This document shows, piece by piece, positions 24,406-47,535 of a DNA stretch of 64,000 nucleotides (the first letter of the stretch is position 1; every line of letters starts with the position of its first letter). The notes beneath the pieces are model-generated. The model saw only the letters and a list, made by a program, of their open reading frames with translations. It had not been told where the DNA came from and did not search any database. The DNA lies in the NCBI GenBank assembly GCA_028293765.1, contig JAQGOG010000097.1, positions 1-64,000 of the forward strand. The letters run 5' to 3'. This stretch comes from Gammaproteobacteria bacterium (GTDB lineage: Bacteria; Pseudomonadota; Gammaproteobacteria; Steroidobacterales; Steroidobacteraceae). The translations under genes and the position numbers were made by a program.

Positions 24406-24448
24406 GGTGCTCGATCGGAGCGGATGAGGCTGCCGATCGTGCATCACG

Positions 24449-24474
24449 GGATCCGCTACGTCAATATGGGATCC
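24449..24474 (-). promoter_or_regulatory. Promoter of gntR with paired GGATCC operators
   Basis: Read leftward: GGATCC (24474-24469), four bases, TTGACG as -35 (24464-24459), four bases, GGATCC (24454-24449), and a weak -10 (CACGAT) 17 bases after the -35. The upstream box is the fuller palindrome TGGGATCCCA. The site overlaps the end of the neighbouring secreted-protein gene. Confidence 0.65.
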
Positions 24475-28049: not shown

Positions 28050-29315
28050 ATGGCAACCATCGTTGGTGGAATCGCCACTTCTCACACTCCGACGATCGGC
28101 TTCGCTCTGGACGCCAACAAGCAGCTGGATCCAGTCTGGGCGCCGATATTCGCCGGCTACGAGCCGGTACGGCAGTGGCTGGCGGACCAGCAGCCCGACG
28201 TGCTGTTCTATATCTATAACGATCACGCCACTTCGTTTTTCTTCGATCATTACTCACATTTTGCCCTTGGGGTGGGCGAGCGCTACTGGCCTGCCGATGA
28301 GGGCGGCGGCCCCCGCAAGCTGCCGCCGATCAAAGGCCACCCGGGACTGGCGCGCCACGTCGCTACGGGACTGGTCGCCGACGAATTCGACCTCGCCTTT
28401 TTTCAGGCCAAGGGACTGGATCACGGCTGCTTCTCGCCGTTGTCGCTGCTGTGGCCCCATGAGCGCGACTGGCCCGGCGCAATCGTGCCGCTCCAGGTTG
28501 GAGTGCTGCAGTTTCCGATTCCCTCCGCACGGCGTTGCTTCAAGCTGGGACGCGCGCTGCGCAAAGCGATTGAGAGTTATCCCGAAGACCTCAAGGTCGC
28601 CATCGTCGGCACCGGCGGCCTTTCGCATCAGATCCACGGGGAGCGGGCCGGCTTCAATAACACTGCCTGGGACCTGGAGTTTCTCGATCTGCTGGAAAAG
28701 GATCCCGAAAAGCTCACGGACCTCACCATTGCAGACTACGCCGAGCGCGGCGGCTGTGAGGGCTCGGAAGTGATCATGTGGCTGGTCATGCGCGGCGCGT
28801 TGTCGGTCAAGGTGAAGAAGCTCCATCAGGCCTACTACCTGCCCTCGATGACGCCGATCGCCACCGTGATCTATGAAAACGCCTCAGACGAAGCAAGCGA
28901 CGAATCCGTGGCCGACTACCGGGCACGCATCGAACGGCAGTGGGTCGGCCTCGAGAAGCTGCCCGGCACCTATCCGTTCACCCTGGATCGCAGCGTCAAA
29001 GCCTTCCGCCTCAACAGCTTCCTGCATCGGCTCATCGAGCCTGCGCAGCGGCGGCGCTTCCTCAGCGAACCCGAGCCCATGTTCACCGAGGCGGGACTCA
29101 CAGACGAGGAACGTAACATGGTGCGCGCCCGGGACTGGCAGGCGTTGATCCACTATGGCGTAATCTTCTTTCTGCTGGAGAAACTCGGAGCCGTCATTGG
29201 CACGACGAACCTGCACATCTACGCGGCCATGCGGGGGCAGTCCCTGGAAGAATTCCAGCAGACGCGCAACTCCCAGATCCTCTACTCGGTCGCTGGAGAC
29301 GCGGGGAGCCGCTGA
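28050..29315 (+). CDS. Gallate dioxygenase (DesB/GalA-type LigAB fusion)
   Basis: The 421-residue protein has the length and order of gallate dioxygenases (about 420): an N-terminal LigB-type catalytic domain to about 285 and a C-terminal LigA-like helical domain. Iron ligands are at His12 (IATSHTP), His59 (YNDHATSF) and a Glu in GGCEGSEVIMW (237 or 240). His of LSHQIHGER is the expected catalytic histidine region. It opens the ring of gallate to 4-oxalomesaconate without a separate alpha subunit. The start ATG has CAGGAA upstream. With the divergent O-demethylase it fits a syringate or 3-O-methylgallate route. Downstream oxalomesaconate hydratase/aldolase genes are not in the window. Confidence 0.92.
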   Translation: MATIVGGIATSHTPTIGFALDANKQLDPVWAPIFAGYEPVRQWLADQQPDVLFYIYNDHATSFFFDHYSHFALGVGERYWPADEGGGPRKLPPIKGHPGLARHVATGLVADEFDLAFFQAKGLDHGCFSPLSLLWPHERDWPGAIVPLQVGVLQFPIPSARRCFKLGRALRKAIESYPEDLKVAIVGTGGLSHQIHGERAGFNNTAWDLEFLDLLEKDPEKLTDLTIADYAERGGCEGSEVIMWLVMRGALSVKVKKLHQAYYLPSMTPIATVIYENASDEASDESVADYRARIERQWVGLEKLPGTYPFTLDRSVKAFRLNSFLHRLIEPAQRRRFLSEPEPMFTEAGLTDEERNMVRARDWQALIHYGVIFFLLEKLGAVIGTTNLHIYAAMRGQSLEEFQQTRNSQILYSVAGDAGSR

Positions 29316-30895: not shown

Positions 30896-31897
30896 TCAGT
30901 GCGCGATGTTGGTGCCCTGCCTACCTAGTCCGGCACGATAAGCGGCAGGAGCGGAACCGTAGCACTCGCGAAAGCAACGCGCGAAATGGCTCGCCTCCGC
31001 GAAACCGCAGCATGAGGCAATTTCCCCGATCGACATGCCGGAAAAGCGCCGCTCGCTCAGTAAGTCCCGCGCGCGGCCGAGCCGCGCTCGAGTGAGTTGC
31101 CGTCCGAACGTGGTAGCGTTACTCGCAAACAGGTAGTGCAAATAGCGTGGCGAAATCCCTAGCTCGGTGGCAACTTCCGTGGGGCTCAGGCCCGCCTCAT
31201 GATAGCGATCCTGCAGGACGCGAAGCAGGCGGCGGTAGAGATCGTCGCGACGCGAAACCGGAGGGCGTGGCCAGCCCGCCGACAGCGTAAGCAGAGCCGC
31301 AATCTGTTCGGCTACCACGCCGCCGGGCAACGCAAGTGTGTCGAGCTCCCCTGGCCGCAAGGCACTGATGACAGCCGCGAGAGCCGCCGGCCAGCCGTTC
31401 TGGGCACGCAACACGCGGCCAACGAGACTCTGCGGATCCAGCACCCAGGCGCGCAGCCAATCTCGAGGCAACTGCAGGATCACGCAGCGCGTCGGCTGCG
31501 GACACCGGGCACTGTGCGGCTCGCTGCTGTCGATGAGGACGCTGTCGCCGCTGTAGACTTGTGTCGAACGCCCCAGGCAATCGAGCTGAAATTCCCCGGC
31601 CGCAAGATACAGAAGATGAAACTCCGTCTTGTCGCTGCGCGCGATGGCGCCACGGGAGCGCGTCACCTGCTGCGACGTAGCGCCCAGGAAATTGAGCGTG
31701 ACAGGACCCAACTGGCACTGCTCGAGCCGGGCGCTGAAGCCGGACCCGGCTGCCGCCTCGATTTCGAGCTCCAACATCGAATCACAGATGGACTCTCGCC
31801 AGTAGGACAAGGCGTTGTGCGGCTCGACATCCTCCGTCGACCAACACCGTATGGCCCGTGCTCTACCTGCAGCTTCGGCGGAATCGACGGTACCCAT
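30896..31897 (-). CDS. AraC-family transcriptional regulator
   Basis: The 333-residue protein has an N-terminal cupin-like AraC-binding domain (LSYWRESICDSMLELEIE, YSGDSVLIDSSEPHS) and a C-terminal double HTH from about residue 230 (LSPTEVATELGISPRYLHYLF and SIGEIASCCGFAEASHFARCF, then GSAPAAYR). Proteins of this layout often respond to aromatic acids. It lies leftward between the MetE-like gene and an MFS permease gene transcribed the same way, either of which could be a target. Confidence 0.9.
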   Translation of the reverse strand: MGTVDSAEAAGRARAIRCWSTEDVEPHNALSYWRESICDSMLELEIEAAAGSGFSARLEQCQLGPVTLNFLGATSQQVTRSRGAIARSDKTEFHLLYLAAGEFQLDCLGRSTQVYSGDSVLIDSSEPHSARCPQPTRCVILQLPRDWLRAWVLDPQSLVGRVLRAQNGWPAALAAVISALRPGELDTLALPGGVVAEQIAALLTLSAGWPRPPVSRRDDLYRRLLRVLQDRYHEAGLSPTEVATELGISPRYLHYLFASNATTFGRQLTRARLGRARDLLSERRFSGMSIGEIASCCGFAEASHFARCFRECYGSAPAAYRAGLGRQGTNIAH

Positions 31898-33470: not shown

Positions 33471-34415
33471 ATGGCCCCACTCTCCCGCAGATGTTTTCTC
33501 GACCACACGCTATGCACGGCCGCCGTTGCAACGGTGGCCGGCCTGCCGCTCGGCCTGCTGGCCGGACCCGCGGCGGCGCGCTCGAGCGCGGCGACGCTCA
33601 GCTCCAGGGAACTCACGCCGAGTCTGCGACTGATCGCGGCTTCCGGCTGTAATGTCGTCGCGCTCGGCTCCGGCACCGATGTACTGCTCATCGACGGGGG
33701 CACGGAGAAGGAAGCGCCGGCCGTGCTGGAGCGCGTGTTGCGAGACTCAGGCGCACGTCACGCCCGCGTCCTCATCAATACTCACTGGCACCCCGAGCAG
33801 ACCGGCCTGAACCAACGTCTGGGCAAGGCCGGGACGACGCTGATCGCGCACGAGAACACGAAGTTGTGGCTGAGCCGGCCGATCCGCACGTCCTGGCTGC
33901 CGCAAACCTTCGGCCCGCTGCCGCCGCAGGCTCGGCCCACGAAGACGACGTACACCACGGCAACTCTCGATTTCGGGGCCGAGACGATCGAATACGGCTA
34001 TCTCCAGCAGGCCCACACGGATGGCGACCTGTACGCGTATTTTCGAGGCGCCAACGTATTGGCAGCCGGCGGCGTAGTGTCATCCGACCGCTGGCCACTC
34101 CTGGATTGGGAGACTGGCGGCTGGATCGCAGGGTTGGTGGCCGGCTACGATAAATTGCTGCGCATCGCGAATGACTCCACGCAGATCGTTCCTGCCAACG
34201 GCCCGGTACTCGCACGCCCCGCCCTGGTCGCGCACCGGGAAATGTACTTCACGATCTACGAGCGTCTGGTCGCCTGCCTGAATAAGGGGATGGGGCCCGA
34301 TGAGGCGGTGGCGACCCAACCCGCCAGGGAATTCGCAGCGCCCTGGGGGAGCCCGGACCACTTCATCGACAGCGCCTTCCGCAGCCTGTGGGGACATTTC
34401 GCCGCCGACGCGTGA
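33471..34415 (+). CDS. Exported metallo-beta-lactamase-fold protein with altered metal motif
   Basis: The 314-residue protein has a Tat-like signal (SRRCFLDHTLCTAAVATVAG) and an MBL fold (GTDVLLIDGGT, INTHWHPEQTGLN, QQAHTDGDLYAYF, NVLAAGGVVSSD). The usual H-x-H-x-D-H is changed to H-W-H-P-E-Q, so one Asp and one His ligand are replaced by Glu and Gln. This variant is found in a group of exported MBL-fold proteins of unknown activity; metal content may differ or be single-site. It is divergent from the MFS permease gene. Confidence 0.8.
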   Translation: MAPLSRRCFLDHTLCTAAVATVAGLPLGLLAGPAAARSSAATLSSRELTPSLRLIAASGCNVVALGSGTDVLLIDGGTEKEAPAVLERVLRDSGARHARVLINTHWHPEQTGLNQRLGKAGTTLIAHENTKLWLSRPIRTSWLPQTFGPLPPQARPTKTTYTTATLDFGAETIEYGYLQQAHTDGDLYAYFRGANVLAAGGVVSSDRWPLLDWETGGWIAGLVAGYDKLLRIANDSTQIVPANGPVLARPALVAHREMYFTIYERLVACLNKGMGPDEAVATQPAREFAAPWGSPDHFIDSAFRSLWGHFAADA

Positions 34416-34664
34416 CTGCGGCTCTCGGCCGCGATTGGCGCCCAAATGCTCGCGGCGATATTCGGTGGGCGTGACGCCATAACGCTGGCGAAACGCTTTG
34501 CCAAAATTCGTGCTGCTTGCAAAGCCGTGCTCGGACGCAATGCCGCTCACGGGGCGAGCTCTGCGCGACGCCGCGCCCAGCAGCCGCGCACTTTCCGGGA
34601 GCCGGCGCCGCAGGATGTACCGGGCGACCGTCTCATCGCCGCGGGTAAAAATGCTACTACCCAC
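34412..34664 (-). pseudogene. Relic of an AraC-type regulator (C-terminal HTH)
   Basis: Leftward translation gives the second half of an AraC DNA-binding domain: GDETVARYILRRRLPESARL, VSGIASEHGFASSTNFGKAF, RQRYGVTPTEYRREH. There is no ligand-binding domain, no usable start, and no stop where the domain should end; the frame runs on antisense through the MBL gene. It is a truncated leftover next to the TfdA-like gene, perhaps its former regulator. Confidence 0.7.
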
Positions 34665-34667
34665 CAA

Positions 34668-34710
34668 TTGCAACGGGCGGCCGGGGGCGCCTAGAATGGA
34701 AGCATGCTTT
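34668..34710 (+). promoter_or_regulatory. Promoter of the TfdA-like/AAHS operon with AAGCATGCTT operator
   Basis: TTGCAA (34668-34673), 18 bases, TAGAAT (34692-34697), then GAAGCATGCTTT (34699-34710) over the expected transcription start. The layout is the same as at 41827-41869. The transcript would have a leader of only about 20 bases before the ATG at 34727. Confidence 0.75.
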
Positions 34711-34726
34711 GCATATGGGCGCGGGC

Positions 34727-35596
34727 ATGGAACTGAAGTTTTCGACCCTGGCACCCGAGTTCATCGCGGAAGTGTCGGGGGTCGACTTTTCACGACCCGT
34801 CGATCGAGCGACGGTGGGGAAGATCGTCGCTGCGATGGATCGATACGCGGTTTGCGTATATCGGGCAACGGCGCTCGACGATGCCTCTCACATCGCCTTC
34901 AGCCGGCTCCTCGGGCGGCTCGAAGTGGCACCGGCGCTGTTCGGCAAGGGCAACAGACGCCTGGGGCATGCGGAGCTGTTCGATGCCGGCAATCTGGATG
35001 CCGGCGGGAATATCCTGGTCGATGCGCGGCGTCGCCTCTACAACAAGGGTAACGCGCTGTGGCACACGGACTCCTCGTTCAATCCGCAGCGCTCAGCATA
35101 CTCCCTGCTGCTTGCCCACGAAGTACCCCCTGCCGGGGGCGACACGGAATTCGCGGACATGCGCGCCGCGTACGCCGCGCTCCCGGCGGCGTTGAAGGAG
35201 GAAATCGAGGATCTGGTGGTGGAGCATTGGCTGTGGCATTCGCGCATGCTGGCGGGCTATCCGCAGCCCACGGCGGAAGAACGGCTCGCCAAACCTCCCG
35301 CACGCCACAAGCTCGTGCAGATTCACCCCGGCTCAGGACGCAAGACGTTGTATCTCGCAGCGCATGCCGCCAACGTCGTCGGCTGGCCGGCCGCCAGGGG
35401 CCGGCAGCTACTCGATACGCTCATGGAATTCGCAACCCAACCGCAATTCTACCGGGCGGTCGCCTGGCGGCAGCGCGGTGACCTCGTAATCTGGGACAAT
35501 CGGTGCACCATGCATCGTGCGACCCCTTTTGAGGACACAGTACACCGCCGCGATATGCGGCGGACCACCGTCTACGAGGACGTCGCGCGGGTTTGA
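34727..35596 (+). CDS. TfdA-like 2-oxoglutarate/Fe(II)-dependent dioxygenase
   Basis: From the ATG at 34727 the 289-residue protein places iron ligands at His113 and Asp115 (LWHTDSSF) and His263 (DNRCTMHRATPF), almost exactly the TfdA positions. PPAGGDTEFADMRAAYAALP, HPGSGRKTLYLAAHA and the RRDMRRTT 2-oxoglutarate arginine also match TfdA and RdpA. This numbering favours 34727 over the ATG at 34715. TfdA cleaves the ether bond of aryloxyacetates such as 2,4-D; relatives act on other ethers, so the natural substrate here may be a plant or lignin ether. The AAHS permease follows ten bases later, as TfdK accompanies TfdA elsewhere. Confidence 0.85.
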   Translation: MELKFSTLAPEFIAEVSGVDFSRPVDRATVGKIVAAMDRYAVCVYRATALDDASHIAFSRLLGRLEVAPALFGKGNRRLGHAELFDAGNLDAGGNILVDARRRLYNKGNALWHTDSSFNPQRSAYSLLLAHEVPPAGGDTEFADMRAAYAALPAALKEEIEDLVVEHWLWHSRMLAGYPQPTAEERLAKPPARHKLVQIHPGSGRKTLYLAAHAANVVGWPAARGRQLLDTLMEFATQPQFYRAVAWRQRGDLVIWDNRCTMHRATPFEDTVHRRDMRRTTVYEDVARV

Positions 35597-35606
35597 TACC
35601 GCTGCA

Positions 35607-36911
35607 ATGAGATCAACGTTCACCAGGTCAAACGCTCGAGTGAACGCCGATCCCACAGTTGAATCTGAGCCACAGGCGCTGGATGTGGCCAGCCCACTCG
35701 AGAGCCACGGGGCGGGGTGGCTCGTCGTGCGCCTCGTGCTGGTCGCCTGGCTCGTGACGTTCTTCGACGGTTTCGATCTGAACGTCATTGCGTTCGCTGC
35801 CCCTTATCTCGTCGAGTCCTACCATCTCGACACGCACGCTCTGGCAAACGTGTTCACAACTGGAATTGCCGGAACGTTGCTCGGCGCGGTCCTGTTCGGC
35901 GTCCTGGGCGATCGTATCGGGCGCCGTAGCGCCATCATCGCAGCGACCGCGCTGTTCGGAATTCTCACCCTGACGCTCGCATTCGCCGCCAGTTACTGGG
36001 AGCTGTTGTTGCTGCGATTTGTCAGCGGCATGGCGCTTGGAGGCGCGATCCCGCTCATCTGGGCATTGAGCGTCGAATACGCGCCGCGCCGTTATCAGGC
36101 TACGCTCGTTACCGTGATCATGCTGGGCTACGGGCTCGGCATAGCGGTAGCCGGACCGATCTCCCTGGCACTGATCCCCCGCTTCGGCTGGCAGGCGGTG
36201 TTCTTCTTCGGCGGTATTGCCTCCCTGCTCACGGCGGTGCTGCTCTACCGTGCGCTGCCGGAGTCGCCGCGATTTCTGGCCGCCCGCGCAGCCGGAAGCG
36301 CGCATTTCAGCAGCGGACCGGCGGTGTTGTTCGAAGGCCGGCTGCGTTGGATCACTCCGCTTCTGTGGCTCGCGTACGCGGCCAGTTCACTCAATACGTT
36401 CTTTCTCGCGACGTGGGGACCCCTGCTGTTCGAGGGCATGGGGCTGAGCCGGCACGACGCGGCGTGGTCGTCTTCAATGAATTCCGTGGCAGGCGCACTC
36501 GGCGCGCTGCTGCTCATGCGCTTTACCGACCGGGTCGGCGCGATCTGCGTAGCCCTGCTGCCCGCAGTGGCCGTCCCGTTTCTGCTGACAATCGGCTTCG
36601 TCCCGGTGAGCCACACCACCTTCCTTTGCATGATGTGCGTGTTGTATGTGTTTCTCGGCGGCAGCCACTACGGCGTCATCAGCGTCGCAGGCCTATATTA
36701 TCCAACTACGCGGCGCGGTTTGGGAACGGGCTGGGCCGCCGGCATCGGCAAACTCGGCTCAATGGCCGGACCCTGGCTCGGCGGTTGGCTCATGGCCGCC
36801 AACACGCCGGCACCGCGCACTTTCGCGGTGCTGGCGATTTTTCCGGCCGTCTTCTGCGTATGTATGCTCGCCATCGGCCTGCTGGAGCGCAAGCCGCCCC
36901 ACGCCGCTTGA
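35607..36911 (+). CDS. Aromatic acid:H+ symporter (AAHS family MFS permease)
   Basis: The 434-residue 12-helix MFS protein has the AAHS signature FFDGFDLNVIAFAAPYL in helix 1, GVLGDRIGRRSAIIAATALFG and LLLRFVSGMALGGAIPL. The family includes PcaK, BenK and the 2,4-D permease TfdK. The start ATG at 35607 follows the dioxygenase stop by ten bases, so the two form one transcript under the AAGCATGCTT operator. The large central loop expected of AAHS proteins is short here. Confidence 0.9.
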   Translation: MRSTFTRSNARVNADPTVESEPQALDVASPLESHGAGWLVVRLVLVAWLVTFFDGFDLNVIAFAAPYLVESYHLDTHALANVFTTGIAGTLLGAVLFGVLGDRIGRRSAIIAATALFGILTLTLAFAASYWELLLLRFVSGMALGGAIPLIWALSVEYAPRRYQATLVTVIMLGYGLGIAVAGPISLALIPRFGWQAVFFFGGIASLLTAVLLYRALPESPRFLAARAAGSAHFSSGPAVLFEGRLRWITPLLWLAYAASSLNTFFLATWGPLLFEGMGLSRHDAAWSSSMNSVAGALGALLLMRFTDRVGAICVALLPAVAVPFLLTIGFVPVSHTTFLCMMCVLYVFLGGSHYGVISVAGLYYPTTRRGLGTGWAAGIGKLGSMAGPWLGGWLMAANTPAPRTFAVLAIFPAVFCVCMLAIGLLERKPPHAA

Positions 36912-36949
36912 CATTCCTCAAAGCTCGCGAGCAAGCTGCCGCCAAATAG

Positions 36950-36961
36950 AAAGCATGCTTT
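36950..36961 (+). promoter_or_regulatory. AAAGCATGCTTT operator upstream of TonB receptor
   Basis: A perfect 12-bp palindrome 31 bases before the receptor start. It is identical to the one at 41858-41869 and differs in one base from that at 34699-34710. The -35/-10 here is weaker (CAAATA directly upstream). Confidence 0.75.
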
Positions 36962-36992
36962 GCTTTTTGATACGAAAGGGGGAGTCGAGTAC

Positions 36993-39908
36993 ATGTCAGC
37001 CAACGGGAGACGGCGCCTGCTGCGCGCCGTTCTCAGCCTGAGTCTGCTCGGGTTGAGAGCAATTGCCAGCGCACAGAACACCACTTCGACCACGGACGCA
37101 CAATTGCAGGGCGCGAGTCAGCCTGCCCTGCAGGAGGTCGTCGTCACCGGATCACGCATTTCGCGTAATGGATTCACGGCCCCGACGCCAGTCACCGTCA
37201 TAGGTGCCGAGCGCTTCGAGCAGCGTGCAATCCCCAACGTCGGCGATGCGCTCAACGAATTGCCGGCATTTCGGGCGTCCGCCACCCCAGCGACACAGCA
37301 GCTTGCGGGCGGAAATGTCGGCGCGCGCCTCCTGGACCTGCGCGGCCTCGGTCCCGTCCGCACTCTCGTGCTGGTGGACGGCAGGCGCTTCGTCGCCTCG
37401 ACTCCACAAGGATCGATCGATACGAACCTCATTCCATCCGCGCTCATAGAGCGGGTGGAAGTAGTAACGGGCGGCGCCTCCGCTGCATACGGCTCGGACG
37501 CCGTGGCGGGCGTCGTCAACTTCATCATGAATCGCAAGCTCGAGGGGGTTAAGGCTTCCGCCTCTTACGGCTCCTCGGAGCGTAGCGACAATGAGAGCTA
37601 CACGAGCTCGCTGGCGGGCGGCACCGGGTTCCTGGGCGATCGCGGCCACATCGTGGGCGCGGTGGAATTCGAGAACGACAAGGGAATGGGCGATTGTTAC
37701 ACGCGCTCGTGGTGCGGCCAGGAGTGGCTCAACCTCGGCAACAGCCCTGCCGGGACCGCGGGCCGGCCGGCGAACAACATCCAGTCGAACGTGCACACGG
37801 CCACGTTCTCGCAGGACGGCGTGATCAATTCCCCGGCGGCGGCGTTTCCGCTGCGCGGGATCACGTTCAACCACGATGGCAGCACCCGCCCCTTTCAATA
37901 CGGTGAGATCTACGGCACTACCCTCAACCCGCTCTTCATGAAGGGCGGCGAGGGCCAGGGCGAGAATGCGTTCATCCAGGGATTCCGGATCAGTGTCCCG
38001 GTCAAGCGCACGACCCTGTATACCCACACGGATTTCAACTTCACCGGCAGCACTCACGGCGGCCTCGATCTGTCCTACGGCCGGGTCGAAGGCAACGTGC
38101 TGTCCTCCGAGTATCGCGACAACGCGGGCAGCGTCTCGAATCCCAATAGTTTCGGGGCGATCAAGACCGGCAACCCGTACCTGCCGGCGTCACTGCAGGC
38201 GCAGATGACCGCCGCCAACATCAAATCGTTCAATCTCGGCCGCTCGTTCGGGGATATCGGCAACGCAGACGCGAACGCGGTGAACAAGACCTTCCGGGTC
38301 GTCGCCTCGCTGAAGGGAAACGTCAACGACAACTGGTCGTGGGACGGCTACTACGAATACGGCAACAACAACTTCCGGCAGGACGATACGAACAATGTAG
38401 ACGTCCTGCGCATCCGCAACGCCATCGACGCCGTGCGCAACTCGTCGGGACAGATCGTCTGCGCGATCAATGCGGACGCCAGCACGGCGAACGACGATCC
38501 GGGCTGCGCGCCCTTCAATCCCTTCGGCCGCAATAACTTCTCGGCGGCGGCGCGCGCCTACGTGACCCCGCTGGGCTTCCAGACCACCGTGAGCAAACAG
38601 AACGTGCTGTCGGCCAACATTCAGGGTGACCTGTTCAAGACCTGGGCCGGGCCCGTCTCGCTGGCCGCGGGACTCGAAGGCCGGCGCGACGAGATCAGGG
38701 GCGACGCCGACCCCATCTCCAAGGCCAATGGGTTCTTCGTGCTCAATGGACAGGCGGTGGCTGGCCGGGTCGACGTGCGCGAGGGATACGTCGAGACGAA
38801 CATACCGCTCGCCACGATGGCACCGTTCGCCAGGACGATCGAGCTCAACGGGGCGGTCCGCCGTACGCATTACTCCCGCAGCAGCCCGGGCGTGGCCGAT
38901 ACTTCCGTGAGCGTCACTACCTGGAAGGCCGGCGCGGTATGGGAGCCGGTCGAGGCGGTCCGCTTCCGGGCGACCCGCTCGCGGGACATCCGCGCACCGA
39001 ACCTGTTCGAGCTCTTCGGGCCGCGTTCGACGGGCCTCGCCTCACTCACGGACCCCACCAATGGGCGCCAGTCCAACCCGGCAACAGTCTCCGGCTCCAA
39101 CTCCACTCTCGTCCCGGAGATCGCCGACAGCTGGACTGCGGGAGTCGTGCTGCGGCCCACCTGGAGCTGGCTGGAAAACCTGCAGATGTCGGTCGATTAC
39201 TACGACATCAAGATCGGCCAGGCCATCGGTACATTGGGAGCGCAGACGATCGTCAACCGCTGTTTTCAGGGCGCGACGGAATTCTGCTCGCTGATCGATC
39301 GCGATCCGGTCTCGAATGAGGTGGTCAACGTGCGTGACGTGCTCCTGAACGTCAACGCACAGATCACCCGCGGGGTGGATTTCGAGGCCGACTATAAGGT
39401 GGCCCTCGGGGAACGCAGCGGGCAGCTCGACTTTCGACTGCTCACCACCTATGTGAAGGACCTCATCACGATCGACACCGCGGGCTCGACCCAGCGCGCC
39501 GGCCTCACCGGCTGGCGGGCCGGAACCCAGCCGGGGCTGCCCAAATACCTCATCGATACGCTCACCACCTGGAGCAAAGGGCCGCTGTCGCTCAGCATGC
39601 ACAACCGCTACGTTCCGCCGGGGAAATACAACACCGCCTTCGTCGGGCCGGAAGACCCGGGGTACAGCATCTATCTCACGAACAGCTCGAACATAAACCA
39701 CGTCGCCGGTCGGGCCTACACCGACCTCAGCGGTCAATGGGCGCTGCGCAAGCTTGCCGCCAACGGCGCGGTGGTGGTCTTCGCCTCCGTCAACAACCTG
39801 TTCAATGCCGAGCCGCCGCTGGCGCCGAGCGGCAGCGGCAATGGGAACTTCATTCTGTTCGATCCGGTAGGCCGCGCGTACCGGCTGGGAGTCAGAGTGG
39901 CGTTCTGA
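36993..39908 (+). CDS. TonB-dependent receptor (large, TGSRI type)
   Basis: The 971-residue protein starts at the ATG at 36993 after GGGGGAG. It has a signal peptide ending ASAQ, a TonB-box region (LQEVVVTGSRISRNG), plug motifs (TPVTVIGAERFEQRAIPNVG, LDLRGLGPVRTLVLVDGRR, LIERVEVVTGGASAAYGSDA, VAGVVNFIM), and a barrel ending GRAYRLGVRVAF with a terminal Phe as required for outer-membrane insertion. It carries the AAAGCATGCTTT operator, so it probably imports the substrate of the TfdA-like/AAHS pair or of the DUF1592 system. It ends before a 13-bp inverted repeat. Confidence 0.93.
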   Translation: MSANGRRRLLRAVLSLSLLGLRAIASAQNTTSTTDAQLQGASQPALQEVVVTGSRISRNGFTAPTPVTVIGAERFEQRAIPNVGDALNELPAFRASATPATQQLAGGNVGARLLDLRGLGPVRTLVLVDGRRFVASTPQGSIDTNLIPSALIERVEVVTGGASAAYGSDAVAGVVNFIMNRKLEGVKASASYGSSERSDNESYTSSLAGGTGFLGDRGHIVGAVEFENDKGMGDCYTRSWCGQEWLNLGNSPAGTAGRPANNIQSNVHTATFSQDGVINSPAAAFPLRGITFNHDGSTRPFQYGEIYGTTLNPLFMKGGEGQGENAFIQGFRISVPVKRTTLYTHTDFNFTGSTHGGLDLSYGRVEGNVLSSEYRDNAGSVSNPNSFGAIKTGNPYLPASLQAQMTAANIKSFNLGRSFGDIGNADANAVNKTFRVVASLKGNVNDNWSWDGYYEYGNNNFRQDDTNNVDVLRIRNAIDAVRNSSGQIVCAINADASTANDDPGCAPFNPFGRNNFSAAARAYVTPLGFQTTVSKQNVLSANIQGDLFKTWAGPVSLAAGLEGRRDEIRGDADPISKANGFFVLNGQAVAGRVDVREGYVETNIPLATMAPFARTIELNGAVRRTHYSRSSPGVADTSVSVTTWKAGAVWEPVEAVRFRATRSRDIRAPNLFELFGPRSTGLASLTDPTNGRQSNPATVSGSNSTLVPEIADSWTAGVVLRPTWSWLENLQMSVDYYDIKIGQAIGTLGAQTIVNRCFQGATEFCSLIDRDPVSNEVVNVRDVLLNVNAQITRGVDFEADYKVALGERSGQLDFRLLTTYVKDLITIDTAGSTQRAGLTGWRAGTQPGLPKYLIDTLTTWSKGPLSLSMHNRYVPPGKYNTAFVGPEDPGYSIYLTNSSNINHVAGRAYTDLSGQWALRKLAANGAVVVFASVNNLFNAEPPLAPSGSGNGNFILFDPVGRAYRLGVRVAF

Positions 39909-39921
39909 CGGGCAGGCCCGC

Positions 39922-39960
39922 GGATCGCAGCTGAGCGGCGCGGCCGGTCAGCTGCGATCC
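39922..39960. terminator. 13-bp perfect inverted repeat between convergent genes
   Basis: GGATCGCAGCTGA (39922-39934) and TCAGCTGCGATCC (39948-39960) form a perfect 13-bp stem with a 13-base loop. The right arm includes the marR stop codon. It lies where transcripts of the receptor and marR converge and may end both, though there is no T-tract. Confidence 0.55.
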
Positions 39961-40529
39961 AGGTTCGAAAGAATCTTCGCAAACACGGCCATACACACCG
40001 CCAGGTCCTTCGGCGCAATGCCATCCAGCAGCTGCGCCCGGACGCGCTCCTGAATGCTGTTGATCTGCCGCATCAGGGGCTTTGCCGCAGCGGTGAAGCG
40101 GATCACCTTGGCGCGCCGGTCGCCACTCCCGGAGGAGCGGGTGATGAGCCCTTCGGCCTCCAGGTCACGCAGCACGCGCCCAAGAGTCGGCTGCTCGACG
40201 CCAATGCGATCGGCGAGCTCGGTTTGATTGACGGTGTCGCCGAAAACGGTGATCCAATAGAGCACTCCCCAGCGCGCCTGGCTCTGGTTGACCGCGCGCA
40301 GCTCCTCGTTCATGAGGTTGCGCCAGCGTCGCGCCACGAAGGTCAGTCCCTGCGAGAAAGGATATCTCATGTCCTCCACGGCGCCCGTCTCGGGTTGGTC
40401 CGTGCGGCGCAAGAACAGCTCCCCGCTCTGCGAAACATCGGGCATCCATCGTATCGACGCAACCTTCTTCGACGCCGCACCGGGTACCCTGGCGGTCCTT
40501 CTGGCTGGTTGTCTCTTCCGCTCGGCCAT
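39948..40529 (-). CDS. MarR-family transcriptional regulator
   Basis: The protein is 193 residues from the ATG at 40529; the MarR fold itself is the last 140 or so (from MRYPFSQGLTFVARRWRN). The winged HTH reads VNQTELADRIGVEQPTLGRV and LEAEGLITRSSGSGDRRAKVIRFT. The first 50 residues are basic and low-complexity and may be a start-site overcall or a real extension. Its position amid three promoters with the palindrome AAAGCATGCTTT, a size and symmetry typical of MarR dimers, makes it the best candidate to bind them. It converges with the TonB receptor gene. Confidence 0.88.
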   Translation of the reverse strand: MAERKRQPARRTARVPGAASKKVASIRWMPDVSQSGELFLRRTDQPETGAVEDMRYPFSQGLTFVARRWRNLMNEELRAVNQSQARWGVLYWITVFGDTVNQTELADRIGVEQPTLGRVLRDLEAEGLITRSSGSGDRRAKVIRFTAAAKPLMRQINSIQERVRAQLLDGIAPKDLAVCMAVFAKILSNLDRS

Positions 40530-40615
40530 GCCTGCGTCCCGTTCCGTTCTTGAATCCTCGACACGCGTTAGTATCGCACGCGCCCGCCTGGCGAACACTC
40601 CTTACGCAAAGCGCG

Positions 40616-41767
40616 TCAGAGCGCCGCGCCAATCGCGATGTCCGAGAGGCGCTGGAAACGCTCTATGTTCGCGTTGCTTTCCATCACGCCAGCGGACAGA
40701 CAAACAAACGTGACATCGCGCTCGGGGTCGACCCAGTAGAGGGTGCTTCCGGCGCCGTAATTGCCGAACGTGCCGGACGAGGTCAGCGTGCCGAACATGT
40801 GATGACACAGAGCCGTGCCGCGCAACGAAAAGCCAAGACCAATGTATCCCGGTACGGGGTCCCAGCCGCGCTCTCTGCCGCGCTGTGCGTAGAGCTCATT
40901 GGGTTTCTCACCCGTCCAGTTACGGCGGGCCTGCGCAATTATCGCCGGTGAGAGCACTCGCGCGCCGTCGAGCGTGCCGCCGCGGCGCAGCATCTCTGCC
41001 AAGCGGTACATATCCGGTACCGTAGAGGCGATGCCCACCCACGGCATTTCGGCGTGCTCCTCTTCAAAAGCGCCGTTGGGCCCGAGGTCGCTGTGTCCCT
41101 TGTGGCCGATAGGGTAATTGCCACGGAAGTCCGGCACGACGTGGCGCGGCTTGAGGTCCGCTCGCAGCCCGACCGACGTGTCTTTCATCTGCAGCGGTTG
41201 GAGCAGATCCTCATCTACCATCGTGCGGTACGCCCGATGCTTCGGGTCAGTTCGACGCAAAGCTTCAGCCATCAACACGTGATTCACGAAAGGCGAATAG
41301 GCCAGGCGCTCGCCAGGCGGCTCGGCTGGCTGCACCACCTCGCAGACCGCCGCCAGGACCTCGTCAAACCGGTCGATGTACATCCCGGGTTTAGCCTCGA
41401 ACAGGATCGGCAGCCCGGAAGTATGGGTCAGCAAATGGAACAGGGTGATCTTCTCGCGGGCACCGCCGGAAAATCCGGGCACGAGCTCGCAGATACGGGT
41501 CGTCAAGGCAAACTGCCCGCGCTCGATGGCCCGCAGCACCAAAACGTTGGTAAACGCCTTGGTGATCGAAAAGATGCTGAAGACGGAATCCGACCGCAAC
41601 GGCACGCAACCCCGCGCGTCGGCCGTCCCGATTGCCGCATGCAGTCCCACCCGTCCGCCACGGGCTACGGTAATGACCGCTCCGTGGTAGCGACCCGCGG
41701 AGATATCGCCCCTGACGGTATCCTGCAGGTGATCGAGGCTCGCCTGATTCAGACCGGCATCGCCCAT
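40616..41767 (-). CDS. Beta-lactamase-related serine hydrolase
   Basis: The 383-residue protein starts at the ATG at 41767 with GGGAG upstream; the frame continues further but only antisense to the DUF1592 gene. It has the class C-type SxxK motif in IFSITKAF, a Tyr motif at LAYSPFVNH, HLLTHTSGLP, and a C-terminal FGNYGAGSTLYW. It has no signal peptide, so it is an intracellular esterase/amidase-type enzyme (EstB-like) rather than a beta-lactamase. It is divergent from the DUF1592 gene and shares the control region holding the AAAGCATGCTTT operator. Confidence 0.87.
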   Translation of the reverse strand: MGDAGLNQASLDHLQDTVRGDISAGRYHGAVITVARGGRVGLHAAIGTADARGCVPLRSDSVFSIFSITKAFTNVLVLRAIERGQFALTTRICELVPGFSGGAREKITLFHLLTHTSGLPILFEAKPGMYIDRFDEVLAAVCEVVQPAEPPGERLAYSPFVNHVLMAEALRRTDPKHRAYRTMVDEDLLQPLQMKDTSVGLRADLKPRHVVPDFRGNYPIGHKGHSDLGPNGAFEEEHAEMPWVGIASTVPDMYRLAEMLRRGGTLDGARVLSPAIIAQARRNWTGEKPNELYAQRGRERGWDPVPGYIGLGFSLRGTALCHHMFGTLTSSGTFGNYGAGSTLYWVDPERDVTFVCLSAGVMESNANIERFQRLSDIAIGAAL

Positions 41768-41826
41768 GGCGCAAACTCCCAGAAAGTGGGTAAGAAAACG
41801 TGATCGTGGCCGAGCCGGGCCGACGA

Positions 41827-41869
41827 TTGCAACCCTAAGCCGCTGGCGCCTAAAATGAAAGCATGCTTT
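41827..41869 (+). promoter_or_regulatory. Promoter of the DUF1592-DUF1552-ankyrin operon with AAAGCATGCTTT operator
   Basis: TTGCAA (41827-41832), 18 bases, TAAAAT (41851-41856), then the perfect palindrome AAAGCATGCTTT (41858-41869) over the likely transcription start, 22 bases before the ATG. The flanking GGCGCCTA before the -10 is also shared with the TfdA-like promoter. Confidence 0.8.
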
Positions 41870-41890: not shown

Positions 41891-44395
41891 ATGGCCCGTC
41901 AGAGCGGTTGCGCGGACGCGATCATGATAGCGATGGTCTTCCTCGCCCCCGCGCTTACCGCCGCCCCGGCTGCTCATCCGGTCTCCACGGCGACGGCCAC
42001 GCCTGCGGCGACCGCGGTTACGGCCACGCCGGGAGCCAGCTCGGATGCTGTGGCGAGTCAGAAGTGGGCCTTCCTCAACCAGTATTGCAGCAAGTGCCAC
42101 AACGCGGAGGACTGGGCCGGCGGAGTCGCATTCGACTCCATGTCGCCGCAAGACATCCCGGACGATGCCAAGACGTGGGAGAAGGCGATCCGCAAGCTGC
42201 GCGGCCGCCTGATGCCGCCAGCGGGAAATCCACAGCCGGATTCCGGCTCCATTCGTTCCTTCGTGACCTTCATGGAGGAGACCATCGATCGGACCGCGGC
42301 GACGCACCCGGATCCCGGTCAGATCGGCCTGCACCGCTTGAACCGCAAGGAATATGCGAATGCGGTTCGCGACCTGTTGGCTGTGCAGGTCGATCCGACC
42401 GAGCTGCTGCCGCGCGATGACGCGCGTGACGGATTCGACAACGTCGCGAGCGCGTTGCAGGTTTCGCCCTCCTTCCTCGATCAGTACCTCGCGGCGGCGC
42501 GCAGAGTTGCCATCGAGGCACTCGGGGATTCCCACGCCCGGCCGGTCGGGACGACTTATTTCGCGGAGAGCAACGGCACGCAGCACTTTCGTGAGCAGGG
42601 ACTGCCGCTCGGGACGCGCGGGGGACTGGTCGTCGAGCATGATTTTCCGGCCGACGGCGAGTACGTCGTGAATGTCGCTAACATGGCGCAGGCTCTATGG
42701 GTCTACAACATGGAGTTCGAGAACCGGCTGATCGTGACGGTGGACCGCAAACCCGTCTATCAGACCTCCCTCGGCGGCGAGCAGGACCAGAAGGCGATCG
42801 ATCAGCAGCAGTCGCCGGCCGTGGACGCGATCAATGGGCGACTGAAGGGCATTCGTTTCAGCACGACCGCCGGGCCGCATCAGGTTGGCGTCACTTTCCT
42901 GCAGCGATCGCATGCGGAATCGGACGAGCGGCTGCAGGCGCACGTGCCTGGGGGCGGACAGGATCGGGTGCTGCGCGTGACGTCATTCGAGATCCGCGGT
43001 CCATTGAGCGCGTCGGGGGTGAGTGATACTCCCAGCCGGCAGCGTATTTTCGTGTGCTACCCGCGAACTGCTCCGGAGGAGTCCCCTTGCGCCCGCCAGA
43101 TCGTCACGCGCCTCGCCGAACGAGCCTATCGCCATCCCCCGAGCGCCCGGGACACCGCCGACCTGATGGCGTTCTACCAGACAGGTTATGAGAGTGGCGG
43201 TTTCGAGTCAGGCATTCGTCATGCGGTGACTGCACTACTTGCCGATCCGGAATTTCTTTATCGAGTGGAGCGACCCGAGACAGGCGCGCCGCCGGGTACG
43301 ATCACCCGGATCAGCGCTCTCGAGTTGGCCTCACGCCTGTCGTTCTTCCTCTGGAGCAGTTTGCCGGACGAGGAGCTGTTGCGAGTGGCCGGGAGCGGGG
43401 AGTTGCTTACGAGCGCAACCCTGGAAGCCCAGGTCCGGCGGATGCTCGCCGACCCCCGCTCGCAGGCGCTCGCTTCGAATTTCGCCTTTCAGTGGCTCAA
43501 CATGGCGAAGCTGGCCGAAATCCGGCCCGATGTGGCGTTGTTTCCGAATCTCAACGGCGACATCCGCACCGACTTCCGGGAGGAGCTGCGGCTCTTCGTC
43601 GACAGCGTATTCCGCGAGAACCGCAGTGTCCTCGATCTGCTGAGCGCGGACTATACTTTCGTGAATGAGCGGCTGGCATTGCACTATGGCATTCGGGACG
43701 TACGCGGCAGCCGCTTTCGGCGCGTGACCCTGACGGACTCGAAGCGGTTCGGTCTCTTGGGCAAAGGCGCGGTGCTGATGGTGACGTCCTATCCCAACCG
43801 CACCGCTCCCGTGTTGCGCGGAGCTTTCATTCTCGACCGACTTCTCGGCACGCCGCCCGCGGCGCCTCCGCCCAATGTCGGCGCCCTGAAAGAGAATCAG
43901 GAGGGCAAGAAGGCACTCAGCATGCGCGAGATGATGGCCGCGCACCGCAGCAACCCGAGCTGCCGGGGCTGTCACGGAATCATGGATCCACTGGGATTCG
44001 CCCTGGAGAACTTCGACGCTGTCGGGCAGTACCGGACGCGCGATCGATTCGCGGGCACACCCATCGATGCCAGCGGGGAGTTGCCGGACGGTACCGCACT
44101 GAATGGGCCCGATGACCTGCGCAAAGCTCTGCTGCGCAACCCCGATCAGTTCGCGCAGACGCTCACCGAGAAGCTGATGACCTACGCCCTTGGCCGGAGC
44201 CTCGAATACACGGACATGACTGCTGTGCGCGCGATCGCGCGACGCACCGCCTCCCAAGACTATCGCTTCACGGCGCTCGTCATGAATATCGTCGACAGCG
44301 CTGCATTCCAGCTGCATCGCCCAGAAGTGCCCCAGACGCTGACGACAGCGAATGCGCCAGTAGAGGCCTCCCGACAAGTCGCGAATAGCCCGTAG
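41891..44395 (+). CDS. DUF1592-type exported cytochrome-like protein (DUF1587/1592/1588/1585 array)
   Basis: The 834-residue exported protein has a signal peptide, then a low-complexity Thr/Ala linker, a haem-type C-S-K-C-H motif near residue 65 and RGRLMPPAGNPQP. The central part gives IGLHRLNRKEYANAVRDLL, SFLDQYLAAARRVAIEAL and YRVERPETG. The C-terminus has LLMVTSYPNRTAPVLRG (as VLMVTSYPNRTAPVLRG) and a second C-R-G-C-H with GIMDPLGFALENFDAVG. These domains, first named in Planctomycetes, occur with DUF1552 proteins. A periplasmic electron-transfer or oxidative role is likely but unproven. It starts the three-gene operon under the AAAGCATGCTTT operator. Confidence 0.88.
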   Translation: MARQSGCADAIMIAMVFLAPALTAAPAAHPVSTATATPAATAVTATPGASSDAVASQKWAFLNQYCSKCHNAEDWAGGVAFDSMSPQDIPDDAKTWEKAIRKLRGRLMPPAGNPQPDSGSIRSFVTFMEETIDRTAATHPDPGQIGLHRLNRKEYANAVRDLLAVQVDPTELLPRDDARDGFDNVASALQVSPSFLDQYLAAARRVAIEALGDSHARPVGTTYFAESNGTQHFREQGLPLGTRGGLVVEHDFPADGEYVVNVANMAQALWVYNMEFENRLIVTVDRKPVYQTSLGGEQDQKAIDQQQSPAVDAINGRLKGIRFSTTAGPHQVGVTFLQRSHAESDERLQAHVPGGGQDRVLRVTSFEIRGPLSASGVSDTPSRQRIFVCYPRTAPEESPCARQIVTRLAERAYRHPPSARDTADLMAFYQTGYESGGFESGIRHAVTALLADPEFLYRVERPETGAPPGTITRISALELASRLSFFLWSSLPDEELLRVAGSGELLTSATLEAQVRRMLADPRSQALASNFAFQWLNMAKLAEIRPDVALFPNLNGDIRTDFREELRLFVDSVFRENRSVLDLLSADYTFVNERLALHYGIRDVRGSRFRRVTLTDSKRFGLLGKGAVLMVTSYPNRTAPVLRGAFILDRLLGTPPAAPPPNVGALKENQEGKKALSMREMMAAHRSNPSCRGCHGIMDPLGFALENFDAVGQYRTRDRFAGTPIDASGELPDGTALNGPDDLRKALLRNPDQFAQTLTEKLMTYALGRSLEYTDMTAVRAIARRTASQDYRFTALVMNIVDSAAFQLHRPEVPQTLTTANAPVEASRQVANSP

Positions 44396-44427
44396 TCCGG
44401 AAGACAGTGTCCGCAAGGAAACCGCTC

Positions 44428-45747
44428 ATGTTCATCACTCGCAAGCATCTCTCGCGTCGCACTGTGCTCCGGGGCGTCGGCGCGGCAGTTGCGCTACCGC
44501 TGCTCGACGCGATGATTCCAGCCGCGACCGCCCTGGCCGCAACCGCGGCAGCGCCCAAACCCAAGCTGGGATTCATTTATTTCCCGCATGGCGCAGTCAT
44601 GGATCGCTGGCAACCGGCGGCCGCTGGACAGGCCTTCGAATTTCCGCAGATTCTCGCGCCCCTGGAGCCGTACAAGTCTCACACCACGGTTGTCTCCGGC
44701 CTGCGCAACAAAGGAGCGGAGAGTCCCGACCCGCACGGCATCATTCCCGGGACCTGGCTGTCGTGCGTGGGACCCAAAAACCGCGAGACAACCGGGGAGC
44801 GCGGGGTCACGGCAGACCAGTTGGCAGCGCTTCACATGGGGCAGGACACTCCGTTGCCTTCTTTGGAGCTCTCTGGCGAAAGCAGCGGCGGAGTCGCCTG
44901 CGCCCCGGGTGTTGGCTGCGGATTCGCGGATACAGTTGCGTTTCGCACACCGACACAGCCGCTGCCCATGGAGCACAACCCGCGTAAGGTCTTTTACCAG
45001 CTGTTTGGACAAGGCGATACGCAGGAAGAGCGCGTCGAGATTGCGAAGGAAACCGGAAGCATCCTCGACAGCGTGATGGAGAAGGCAAAGCGACTGAGCG
45101 CCGACCTCGGACCGGGCGACAAGGCCATGCTGGCGGACTACCTGGATTCGGTGCGCGAGATCGAGCGCCGCGTCGCGAAGTTGAATGAAGCGGCAGCCAC
45201 CCATATCCAGCTCCCCGACGCCCCGCTGGGGGTACAGGAGGACTTCGGCGAGCAACTCAAGGTGATGTTCGAGCTCATGGCGCTCGCCTGGCAGGCCGAC
45301 AAGACACGCGTCGTCTCGTTCATGATGGCCAAGGAAGTGAGCATGCGCACCTACAATCAGATTGGCATATCCGACGCCTTCCACCCTCTGTCCCATCATC
45401 AGAACGATCCCTCCAAGCTGGATCGTCTGGCGAAGATCCAGACGTATCACACGACGATATTCGCGGCTTTCCTCAAGCGCCTCACGCAGACGCCGGACGG
45501 GGCCGGCAGCCTCCTCGATCATGCCGTCATCTTGTACGGTAGCAATATGAGCAACAGCGACAAGCACAACAACGATCCGTTGCCTTCCGCGCTGCTAGGG
45601 CGGGCCTGCGGCCGCGTCAAAGGCGGGCAGCATCTTCACTATCCGCAGGATACGCCGCACGCGAATCTGCTGTTGACCGTGCTGAATCGCGCCGGCATTC
45701 CGCTCCCCAGCCTCGGCAACAGTACCGGTTTGCTAGCGGACATCTGA
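44428..45747 (+). CDS. DUF1552-family exported protein
   Basis: The 439-residue protein starts at the ATG at 44428 with AAGGAAA upstream. It has a Tat signal (RKHLSRRTVLRGVGAAVALP), then FIYFPHGAVMDRW, VVSGLRNKG, SCVGPKNRETTGERGVTADQ, LADYLDSVREIERRV, FHPLSHHQND and LYGSNMSNSDKHNNDPLP. These are the DUF1552 hallmarks, including the conserved His-rich and Asp/Asn motifs of an alkaline-phosphatase-like fold. It is nearly always encoded beside a DUF1592 protein. Its substrate is unknown. The stop overlaps the next start (TGATG). Confidence 0.9.
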   Translation: MFITRKHLSRRTVLRGVGAAVALPLLDAMIPAATALAATAAAPKPKLGFIYFPHGAVMDRWQPAAAGQAFEFPQILAPLEPYKSHTTVVSGLRNKGAESPDPHGIIPGTWLSCVGPKNRETTGERGVTADQLAALHMGQDTPLPSLELSGESSGGVACAPGVGCGFADTVAFRTPTQPLPMEHNPRKVFYQLFGQGDTQEERVEIAKETGSILDSVMEKAKRLSADLGPGDKAMLADYLDSVREIERRVAKLNEAAATHIQLPDAPLGVQEDFGEQLKVMFELMALAWQADKTRVVSFMMAKEVSMRTYNQIGISDAFHPLSHHQNDPSKLDRLAKIQTYHTTIFAAFLKRLTQTPDGAGSLLDHAVILYGSNMSNSDKHNNDPLPSALLGRACGRVKGGQHLHYPQDTPHANLLLTVLNRAGIPLPSLGNSTGLLADI

Positions 45748-47384
45748 TGCGGCGGGTCGGCAACCTCAGCCCGCTGTTCGCGATCGCGCTCTGCTGCGAG
45801 CTGTTGTCGCATGGGGTGTCGGCCGCAGGGCCGGACTCGGCGACGAGCGGCCCTCCCGCAGCCGCATCGACGGCCGAAGAGGTCGCGCTGATACGACGGA
45901 TTGAACGGGGCGAGCGGCTTCGCGCTCTGGAAGCCATCCGCAAGGGCGCTTCCGCTCGCATGCATGACGCGGACGGCTCCACAGCGCTGCACTGGGCGGC
46001 AAGCCAGGGAGACACAGAGCTGGCACGCGCACTCATTGCCGCCGGCGCCGATGCGCGCGCCAAGAACGAGTTTGGCGCCACGCCTATGTCCGCCGCGGCG
46101 GAGATCGGCAATGCGCACGCAATAGAGATGCTGTTAAAGGCCGGAGCCGACGTCGAGTCGCCCAACGCCGAGGGCGAAACAGCGCTCATGGCCGTCGCTC
46201 GAACGGGCCGGGTCGATGCGGCACGCCCGTTGCTGAAGCATGGCGCAAACCCCAATACCCGGGAGCACTGGGGCGGTCAGACCGCCCTCATGTGGTCGGC
46301 AGCTCAATGTCAGCCTGAGATGATTCGCCTGCTTCTCGACCATGGAGCAAGCCCCGATCTGCGTGGCATGGCGAGAGATTGGCAGCGGCGCGTGACCGCC
46401 GAGCCGCGCCCGAAGGACATGAGCCATGGCGGCTTCACCGCCCTGCTCTACGCCGCCCGTGAGGGCTGTGTGGCCGGAGCGCGTGAACTGATACGGCGCA
46501 AGGCCGACCTGGACCTTGCAGATCCCGACGGCGTGACACCGTTGATTCTCGCTTTGATGAACAGCCACTGGGATTTCGCGCGCTTCCTGATCGAAGCGGG
46601 CGCCGATGTGAATCTCTGGGACTTTTACGGCAGAACACCGCTGTACGCCGCTGTCGACATGAATACGCTGCCCAAGGGGCGCCATGTCGAGCTGCCAGCG
46701 CTCGACGACACGACCGGCCTAGAGGTCATCAGGATGCTGCTCGAGCGCGGCGCCAATCCGAACGCACAACTGAAGCTGCGGGTACCCCATCGCCAGATCC
46801 CTTTCGACCGCTATACCGAGCCGATGCTCAATATCGGCGCCACGCCGCTGCTGAGGGCCGCCAAGGCCGGCGACATAGAGGTCGTGAAGCTCCTTCTGGC
46901 GCACGGAGCGCTCCCCGACCTGCCCAATTTCAACGGCGACACGCCGCTGATGGCAGCGGTAGGCAAGGGTTGGATCAACGCCCCAACCCGGGGAGCGTTC
47001 TACTCGGAAGAACAGGCTATCGAGACCTATTCGCTGCTGCGCGCCGCCGGAGCCAACGTCAACGCTCGCACTCACTTCAACGAAACGCCACTCCACAGCG
47101 CAGCGCTGCGCGGGTGGAATGTAATCGTAAAGCGTCTGGTGGCTGACGGAGCGGAACTGGACGCGAGCGACCGCAACGGCCTCACTCCGCTGGATTTCGC
47201 CATGGGGCGTATACCCAAGGAATTTAACGCCGTGGTGCCTACAGTCCGGAGCGACACGGCGGAACTGCTCGAGTCGCTCGGCGCAAAAGTGGAACACCCG
47301 AATCTACCGCCCTGGCCCGCCGCGTCCACTCCGCGCATCACCGCATGGGTCCCGAACGACACGGCGCTTCTGCCGCCGCAATAG
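45747..47384 (+). CDS. Exported ankyrin-repeat protein
   Basis: The 545-residue protein has a signal peptide (LSPLFAIALCCELLSHGVSA) and about ten ankyrin units, for example DGSTALHWAASQGDTELARA, GATPMSAAAEIGNAHAIEML, GGQTALMWSAAQCQPEMIRL and NETPLHSAALRGWNVIVKRL. It is coupled to the DUF1552 gene by a TGATG overlap. The DUF1592-DUF1552-ankyrin order recurs in several Proteobacteria, which suggests a periplasmic complex scaffolded by the ankyrin solenoid. Confidence 0.92.
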   Translation: MRRVGNLSPLFAIALCCELLSHGVSAAGPDSATSGPPAAASTAEEVALIRRIERGERLRALEAIRKGASARMHDADGSTALHWAASQGDTELARALIAAGADARAKNEFGATPMSAAAEIGNAHAIEMLLKAGADVESPNAEGETALMAVARTGRVDAARPLLKHGANPNTREHWGGQTALMWSAAQCQPEMIRLLLDHGASPDLRGMARDWQRRVTAEPRPKDMSHGGFTALLYAAREGCVAGARELIRRKADLDLADPDGVTPLILALMNSHWDFARFLIEAGADVNLWDFYGRTPLYAAVDMNTLPKGRHVELPALDDTTGLEVIRMLLERGANPNAQLKLRVPHRQIPFDRYTEPMLNIGATPLLRAAKAGDIEVVKLLLAHGALPDLPNFNGDTPLMAAVGKGWINAPTRGAFYSEEQAIETYSLLRAAGANVNARTHFNETPLHSAALRGWNVIVKRLVADGAELDASDRNGLTPLDFAMGRIPKEFNAVVPTVRSDTAELLESLGAKVEHPNLPPWPAASTPRITAWVPNDTALLPPQ

Positions 47385-47391
47385 AAGCTGG

Positions 47392-47481
47392 AAATGTCCG
47401 ATGCGCGGTCGTCTCGGTGACAATGTCCAGGCCGGAAGGCGTCAGCAGGTAACAGTTGTTAATCTCTGCTCCCTTGAAGCA
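47392..47481 (-). pseudogene. 30-codon relic of a TIM-barrel isomerase
   Basis: Leftward, CFKGAEINNCYLLTPSGL then DIVTETTAHRTF matches 21 of 30 residues of the intact isomerase at 22626-23486 (YFKGLEINDGYRNTPPGM, DIVTETTAHRKF). Sequence on either side shows no similarity. It is an internal fragment left after deletion or rearrangement of a paralogue between the ankyrin and lactonase genes. Confidence 0.8.
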
Positions 47482-47535
47482 AGCACGTGCGCTGACCCAG
47501 TTGGCGCACACAACCGACCGATCGAAGGAAATGAC

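Follow-up and report, generated by a model that had tools for sequence, protein, structure and literature searches.

Can a single short palindrome place a TfdA-like dioxygenase, a TonB-dependent receptor and an operon of DUF1592, DUF1552 and ankyrin-repeat proteins under one local repressor? The question is raised by a 64,000-nt stretch of DNA (hereafter the window; contig JAQGOG010000097.1 of assembly GCA_028293765.1) from a Gammaproteobacteria bacterium (Steroidobacteraceae), in which the palindrome AAAGCATGCTTT or a close variant precedes all three units. The probability that AAAGCATGCTTT is the operator through which a SlyA-type MarR-family repressor encoded in the same span (39948-40529, minus strand) controls the three units was put at roughly 0.7, judged from sequence comparison.

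Exact copies of AAAGCATGCTTT were located on the plus strand at 36950-36961 (site 2) and 41858-41869 (site 3). An earlier note on this DNA had reported the same 12-bp palindrome at three promoters, which holds for these two; at 34699-34710 (site 1, plus strand) the sequence is GAAGCATGCTTT, with one mismatch (G for A at the first base), and the palindrome common to all three sites is the 10-bp AAGCATGCTT, the outer bases reading AAAN6TTT or GAAN6TTT. With start codons read from the sequence, the gap between palindrome and start is 4 or 16 bp for tfdA (ATG 34715 or 34727), 31 bp for the receptor gene (ATG 36993) and 21 bp for the DUF1592 gene (ATG 41891). The core TTGCAA-N18-TARAAT, which the note had placed in two of the promoters with the operator right behind the -10, was recovered as TTGCAA-N18-TAGAAT before tfdA (34668-34697, plus strand) and as TTGCAA-N18-TAAAAT before the DUF1592 gene (41827-41856, plus strand), the operator following one base downstream in both; the receptor promoter is without this core. 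A second site with an AGC-NN-GCT core, CGAGCAAGCTGC, lies 22 bp before site 2 (36928-36939, plus strand), and no further operator was found in the window within two mismatches. Site 3 stands between two divergent units, because a serine hydrolase gene (Pfam Beta-lactamase; 40616-41767, minus strand), not mentioned in the note, starts divergently from it at 41767, with marR next on that strand.

In the whole-genome search that the earlier note had proposed, the palindrome was not scattered at random: the 10-mer AAGCATGCTT was found four times in the 6.64-Mb genome, three of the copies being at the promoters of this cluster and the fourth (contig C190) inside a 343-aa open reading frame (ORF). 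Given four places, three would fall within 7.2 kb with a probability of about 1.5e-5, and a dispersed repeat was rejected on the copy number. When one mismatch was allowed, nine places were found (again including the three cluster promoters) against four for the reversed control, so that elsewhere in the genome the motif is near background; a genome-wide regulon was rejected on these counts and on those in relatives. Chance occurrence of so short a palindrome can appeal to the same near-control numbers outside the cluster and to the window taken alone, where three matches at two mismatches compare with a mean of 1.26 and 12 of 100 shuffles reach three, but it is made highly improbable by the clustering of the copies, by their position just before start codons and, most strongly, by its presence ahead of tfdA in three further genera.

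This conservation was followed in 217 genomes of the family, in which TfdA relatives at 67-73% identity were found in five other genomes (G004, G007, G022, G164 and G167). The operator stands just before tfdA within one mismatch in three of the five (G004, G007 and G164); the G022 and G167 loci have no operator within two mismatches. In G007 it also precedes a receptor gene truncated at the edge of the contig, with marR lying between the tfdA and receptor units, and the receptor encoded there is only 39% identical to that of the window (185 residues aligned). The N18 promoter core is kept before tfdA in G004, G007 and G022; G164 has TGGCAA, a 17-bp spacer and TAGAAT, and the G167 promoter does not match the core. 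The sequence TRRAATGRAAGCATG was found at eight places in the family genomes against two for the reversed control, namely four tfdA promoters, the window's own DUF1592 promoter and three others, one of which is inside an ORF while the other two lie at gene starts and have no right palindrome half. At more distant TfdA loci (51-55% identity), no site was seen in the 6 examined of 15 weaker places. Close TfdA relatives beyond the family were not found in samples of 396 order genomes (1e-100) and 369 class genomes (1e-95), and a plasmid search returned only matches under 60% identity. The rarity of the motif across the genome is good support for the claim that three units share one operator, and so is conservation in sister genera in the case of tfdA and of one receptor promoter.

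Two isolated observations belong beside these searches. Upstream of tfdA in G022 (L055, about 12896-12940, minus strand) the promoter core is kept and a different near-palindrome, TCGAAGATCTGCGA, recognized by eye, takes the place of the operator. The exact 13-mer AAAGCATGCTTTG was found in six other genomes when 200 family genomes were searched, five copies being inside ORFs; the sixth (G129, contig C14, L201:6152-6163) places an exact AAAGCATGCTTT about 45 bp past the stop codon of a gallate dioxygenase relative (80% identity with the window's enzyme), where two convergent genes end and not at a promoter, and is perhaps a coincidence. Among the literature matches listed, the string AAAGCATGCTTT was matched in the available text of a Campylobacter jejuni ggt paper.

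The shared promoters seem to differ in origin. Over the 34 bp on the left side of the palindrome, the DUF1592 promoter agrees with the G004 tfdA promoter at 29 positions and with the window's own tfdA promoter at 25, values that none of 20,000 shuffles reached in either comparison, and it looks like a copy of a tfdA-type promoter. The window's receptor promoter matches its tfdA promoter at 11/34 (0.27 of shuffles), which is at chance; it matches the G007 receptor promoter at 9/34 (0.51 of shuffles), and the G007 receptor promoter matches the window's tfdA promoter at 8/34. Receptor promoters share just the operator with the tfdA promoters, and since their flanks agree only at chance level, a copied promoter does not explain the site there. 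The high flank identity of the DUF1592 promoter could be taken to mean that a tfdA-type promoter was merely duplicated before DUF1592 and that the palindrome is unbound; this is quite improbable, as the sequence around the palindrome is unrelated at the receptor promoters, and as the palindrome has been kept ahead of tfdA in genera with 67-73% TfdA identity to the window protein.

Thirty DUF1592 loci (of 43 places) were examined, and an upstream site within two mismatches was present only at the window's own locus and at one in G004 (contig C85); one more locus (L130) has a weak match, downstream. At the G004 locus (L127:4152-4205), two copies of GAGCATGCTTTG (GAGCATGCTTTGCAATGC) and a weaker site lie between a DUF1592-DUF1552 operon and a divergent gene for a metallo-beta-lactamase-fold protein related to that at 33471-34415 in the window; these sites are suggestive only. 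Some genomes of the family have several copies of DUF1592-type proteins, with 8 matches in the window's own genome and 13 in G004, some of them fragments. Five of 24 receptor places lie less than 10 kb from a DUF1592 place, at four loci (own contig C195, own contig C72 twice, G004 contig C223 and G164 contig C15), and this proximity is a link between receptor and DUF1592 genes that is independent of the operator.

The protein encoded at 39948-40529 has a MarR winged-helix domain (Pfam MarR, 45.5 bits; cut-off 24.6), and its best PDB matches are PA3341 and SlyA/RovA chains. The consensus operator of SlyA is given as TTAGCAAGCTAA in the available excerpts of PMC5797941, and the dyad with its AGC-NN-GCT core is common to the window sites, so that binding of this class of site by the MarR protein is predicted; the outer bases differ, being TT..AA for SlyA in the same excerpts and AA..TT in the window operator. 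The excerpts also describe SlyA of Escherichia coli as an antagonist of H-NS, whereas the window regulon is apparently small, local and catabolic. Among 30 family marR loci (one from each genome; a MarR match was present in 49 of 200 genomes), WWAGCNNGCTWW was found within 400 bp upstream of the matched stretch at five, with 0.055 expected from mononucleotide shuffling; three of the five come from one genus and so are not independent. This trio reads AGAATCATAGCTTGCTA, with the distance from a -10-like AGAAT to AGC equal to that at site 1. In G007 the marR gene is the neighbour of tfdA, and in G022 it is next to the permease gene of the tfdA unit; in G004, marR and tfdA are at the ends of different contigs, which is uninformative on linkage. 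A profile search of the genome contigs with the MarR alignment returned three relatives, apparently those of G004, G022 and G007.

On contig C81 of the window's own genome (L058:6920-6981), a paralogous receptor gene (55% identity) stands beside a second SlyA-like marR (39%), with three AGC-NN-GCT sites upstream of the receptor: AAAGCCTGCTTG, TTAGCAGGCTAA and ATAGCGTGCTAT. The last two are 22 bp apart, a spacing that recurs in the window between CGAGCAAGCTGC and site 2, and the pair suggests a second, separately tuned regulon of like design.

The earlier note had named marR as the only regulator in the span; it is the only complete one found, but a lone AraC-type helix-turn-helix fragment, apparently a gene remnant, also lies just before tfdA (about 34452-34643, minus strand). 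The operator might be real and yet belong to another protein. Candidates are the AraC protein (30896-31897), the GntR/FCD protein (23686-24522) and an unlinked SlyA-like protein, and the genome does encode a second SlyA-like MarR (39%), described above. G164 lends itself to this explanation, as the tfdA site is present there together with an AraC relative (41%) less than 4 kb from tfdA, with no close MarR found. AraC proteins usually use direct repeats, unlike the short perfect dyad with a SlyA-type core that lies here over the start region, and in G007 marR is next to tfdA with no AraC relative found on the contig (only 6.8 kb). Control by another regulator was on balance considered unlikely.

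Several results weigh against control by the local MarR protein or against the extent of its regulon. Its best NCBIfam match is SlyA at 101.2 bits, below the equivalog cut-off of 120, for which reason it is called SlyA-like and not SlyA, and the window site departs from the TTAN6TAA pattern given for SlyA in the excerpts of PMC5797941. No AGC-NN-GCT site was found within 400 bp upstream of the window's own marR, so that marR could regulate itself only if transcripts starting near site 3 ran on through the hydrolase gene. The tfdA operator is present in G164 although the best MarR match there is only 32% identical (16 of 40 candidate stretches scored), and G022 encodes a MarR protein at 63% identity beside the tfdA unit, yet its 15.6-kb locus has no site within two mismatches. 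The best relatives of the receptor (64%) and of the DUF1592 protein (71%) in G004 are without the site, so having the operator is not a general property of these two genes. In the window, none of the genes of the aromatic route, including those for the demethylase and the gallate dioxygenase, carries the operator within two mismatches. In the relatives, one-mismatch counts of AAGCATGCTTTG are not clearly above the reversed control (5 and 5 against 5 and 2 in G004; 0 and 2 against 2 and 2 in G007; 3 and 3 against 11 and 5 in G164), and therefore no wider regulon is indicated there; of the extra sites in G004, those on contigs C245, C285 and C81 are inside ORFs, and that on C121 is intergenic, 3' of a gene that we take from its sequence to be GroEL-like, with no evident link. 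A repressor role of the MarR protein at this operator nevertheless remains likely, and it was rated no higher because in G164 the site is present with no close MarR found, and in G022 a MarR is present and the site is absent.

The sequence shows the sites and how rare they are, their retention ahead of tfdA in three sister genera, the resemblance between promoters and the SlyA-like character of the protein; binding, repression, an inducer and co-transcription we infer. A MarR dimer would occupy the palindrome, which at two promoters comes right behind the -10, where RNA polymerase opens the DNA, and would block the promoters of the tfdA-permease unit, the TonB receptor and the DUF1592-DUF1552-ankyrin unit; the divergent hydrolase-marR unit might also be controlled, which would amount to autoregulation. 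An operator so close behind the -10 is consistent with a repressor that covers the start region until a ligand releases it. The small ligand releasing MarR would probably be an aromatic or aryloxy acid, judging from the dioxygenase, the permease and the neighbouring genes. The DUF1592 unit seems to have entered the regulon when it gained a copied tfdA-type promoter.

The genes concerned were assigned as follows. The tfdA-like gene (34715-35596, plus strand; Pfam TauD) encodes a TauD/TfdA-family Fe(II)/2-oxoglutarate dioxygenase whose best PDB match is the 2,4-dichlorophenoxyacetate (2,4-D) dioxygenase 5bke. The HxD, H and R regions, which we take to be catalytic, align with it, in keeping with the TauD domain and membership of the TfdA/TauD family. 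Plasmid copies annotated tfdA or 2,4-D dioxygenase are 40.6-43.7% identical to the window enzyme, and its cleavage of aryloxyacetates is only putative. It is followed by an ORF for a major facilitator superfamily permease resembling the aromatic acid/H+ symporter family (35517-36911, plus strand; start uncertain), which scored 276.2 bits against TIGR00895 when searched from 35571, below the cut-off of 418.55, and by the TonB-dependent receptor gene (36993-39908, plus strand). Downstream of site 3, domain matches assign a DUF1587/1595/1592/1588/1585 protein (PSD/PSCyt domains; 41891-44395, plus strand) with two CxxCH motifs read from the translation, a DUF1552 (HXXSHH) protein (44407-45747, plus strand), an ankyrin-repeat protein (45747-47384, plus strand) and a metallo-beta-lactamase-fold protein (47401-48414, plus strand), possibly encoded by the last gene of the DUF1592 unit.

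Elsewhere in the window, one gene encodes a gallate dioxygenase (751 bits against a cut-off of 412) and another a DesA/LigM-type demethylase (LigM, 614.1 bits with a cut-off of 580; DesA, 797.6 bits with a cut-off of 800); P450 and GMC oxidoreductase genes are also present. The demethylase and gallate dioxygenase genes (26149-27555 and 28050-29315) make a syringate/vanillate-gallate route probable. Relatives of these two enzymes adjoin the tfdA orthologs of G022 and G164, and an aromatic-catabolism neighbourhood is supported for the window. The earlier note had proposed that the shared operator gives the DUF1592 and DUF1552 proteins a substrate class; the aromatic setting is supported, but the class itself remains conjectural, and the nearest DUF1592 ortholog examined, that of G004, lacks such a site.

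Two described regulators resemble the proposed one in part. In the available text of PMC6888825, DesR of Sphingobium sp. SYK-6 is a MarR-type repressor of the vanillate/syringate genes desB, ligM and desR. Its inverted repeats GTTTGTGTCACATAC and GTTTGTGTAACATAC, as given there, have no window match with up to three mismatches; DesR acts on desB and ligM, whereas the demethylase and gallate dioxygenase genes of the window are without a AAGCATGCTT site. A DesR-type regulator was rejected, as its operator GTTTGTGTNACATAC has no window match with up to three mismatches. According to the accessible part of PMC13273656, loss of PheR in Sphingobium sp. SHPJ-2 raises the expression of aromatic catabolism genes and TonB receptors, which places both under one repressor as proposed here, but PheR is of the IclR family and has a 44-bp GC-rich operator. 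By title, none of the literature matches listed describes a regulon of a TfdA-like dioxygenase, a TonB receptor and a MarR operator, and in the open-licence literature searched no paper with both DUF1592 and DUF1552 was found, while two contain DUF1592.

The operator would put one DUF1592 operon under a common switch, without telling what the proteins do, and what the DUF1592 proteins might contribute is the least secure part of the proposal. Tentatively, and with odds well below even, the DUF1592, DUF1552 and ankyrin proteins might form a cell-envelope part of aromatic or aryl-ether catabolism that was captured into a SlyA-type regulon, the receptor importing a larger phenolic substrate and the DUF1592 protein with its haem motifs first oxidizing it. 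A rare, shared and partly conserved operator offers a handle on the DUF1592 proteins, as the inducer of MarR would reveal a condition under which the operon is expressed, and the copied promoter suggests that a regulon of this kind may grow by promoter copying.

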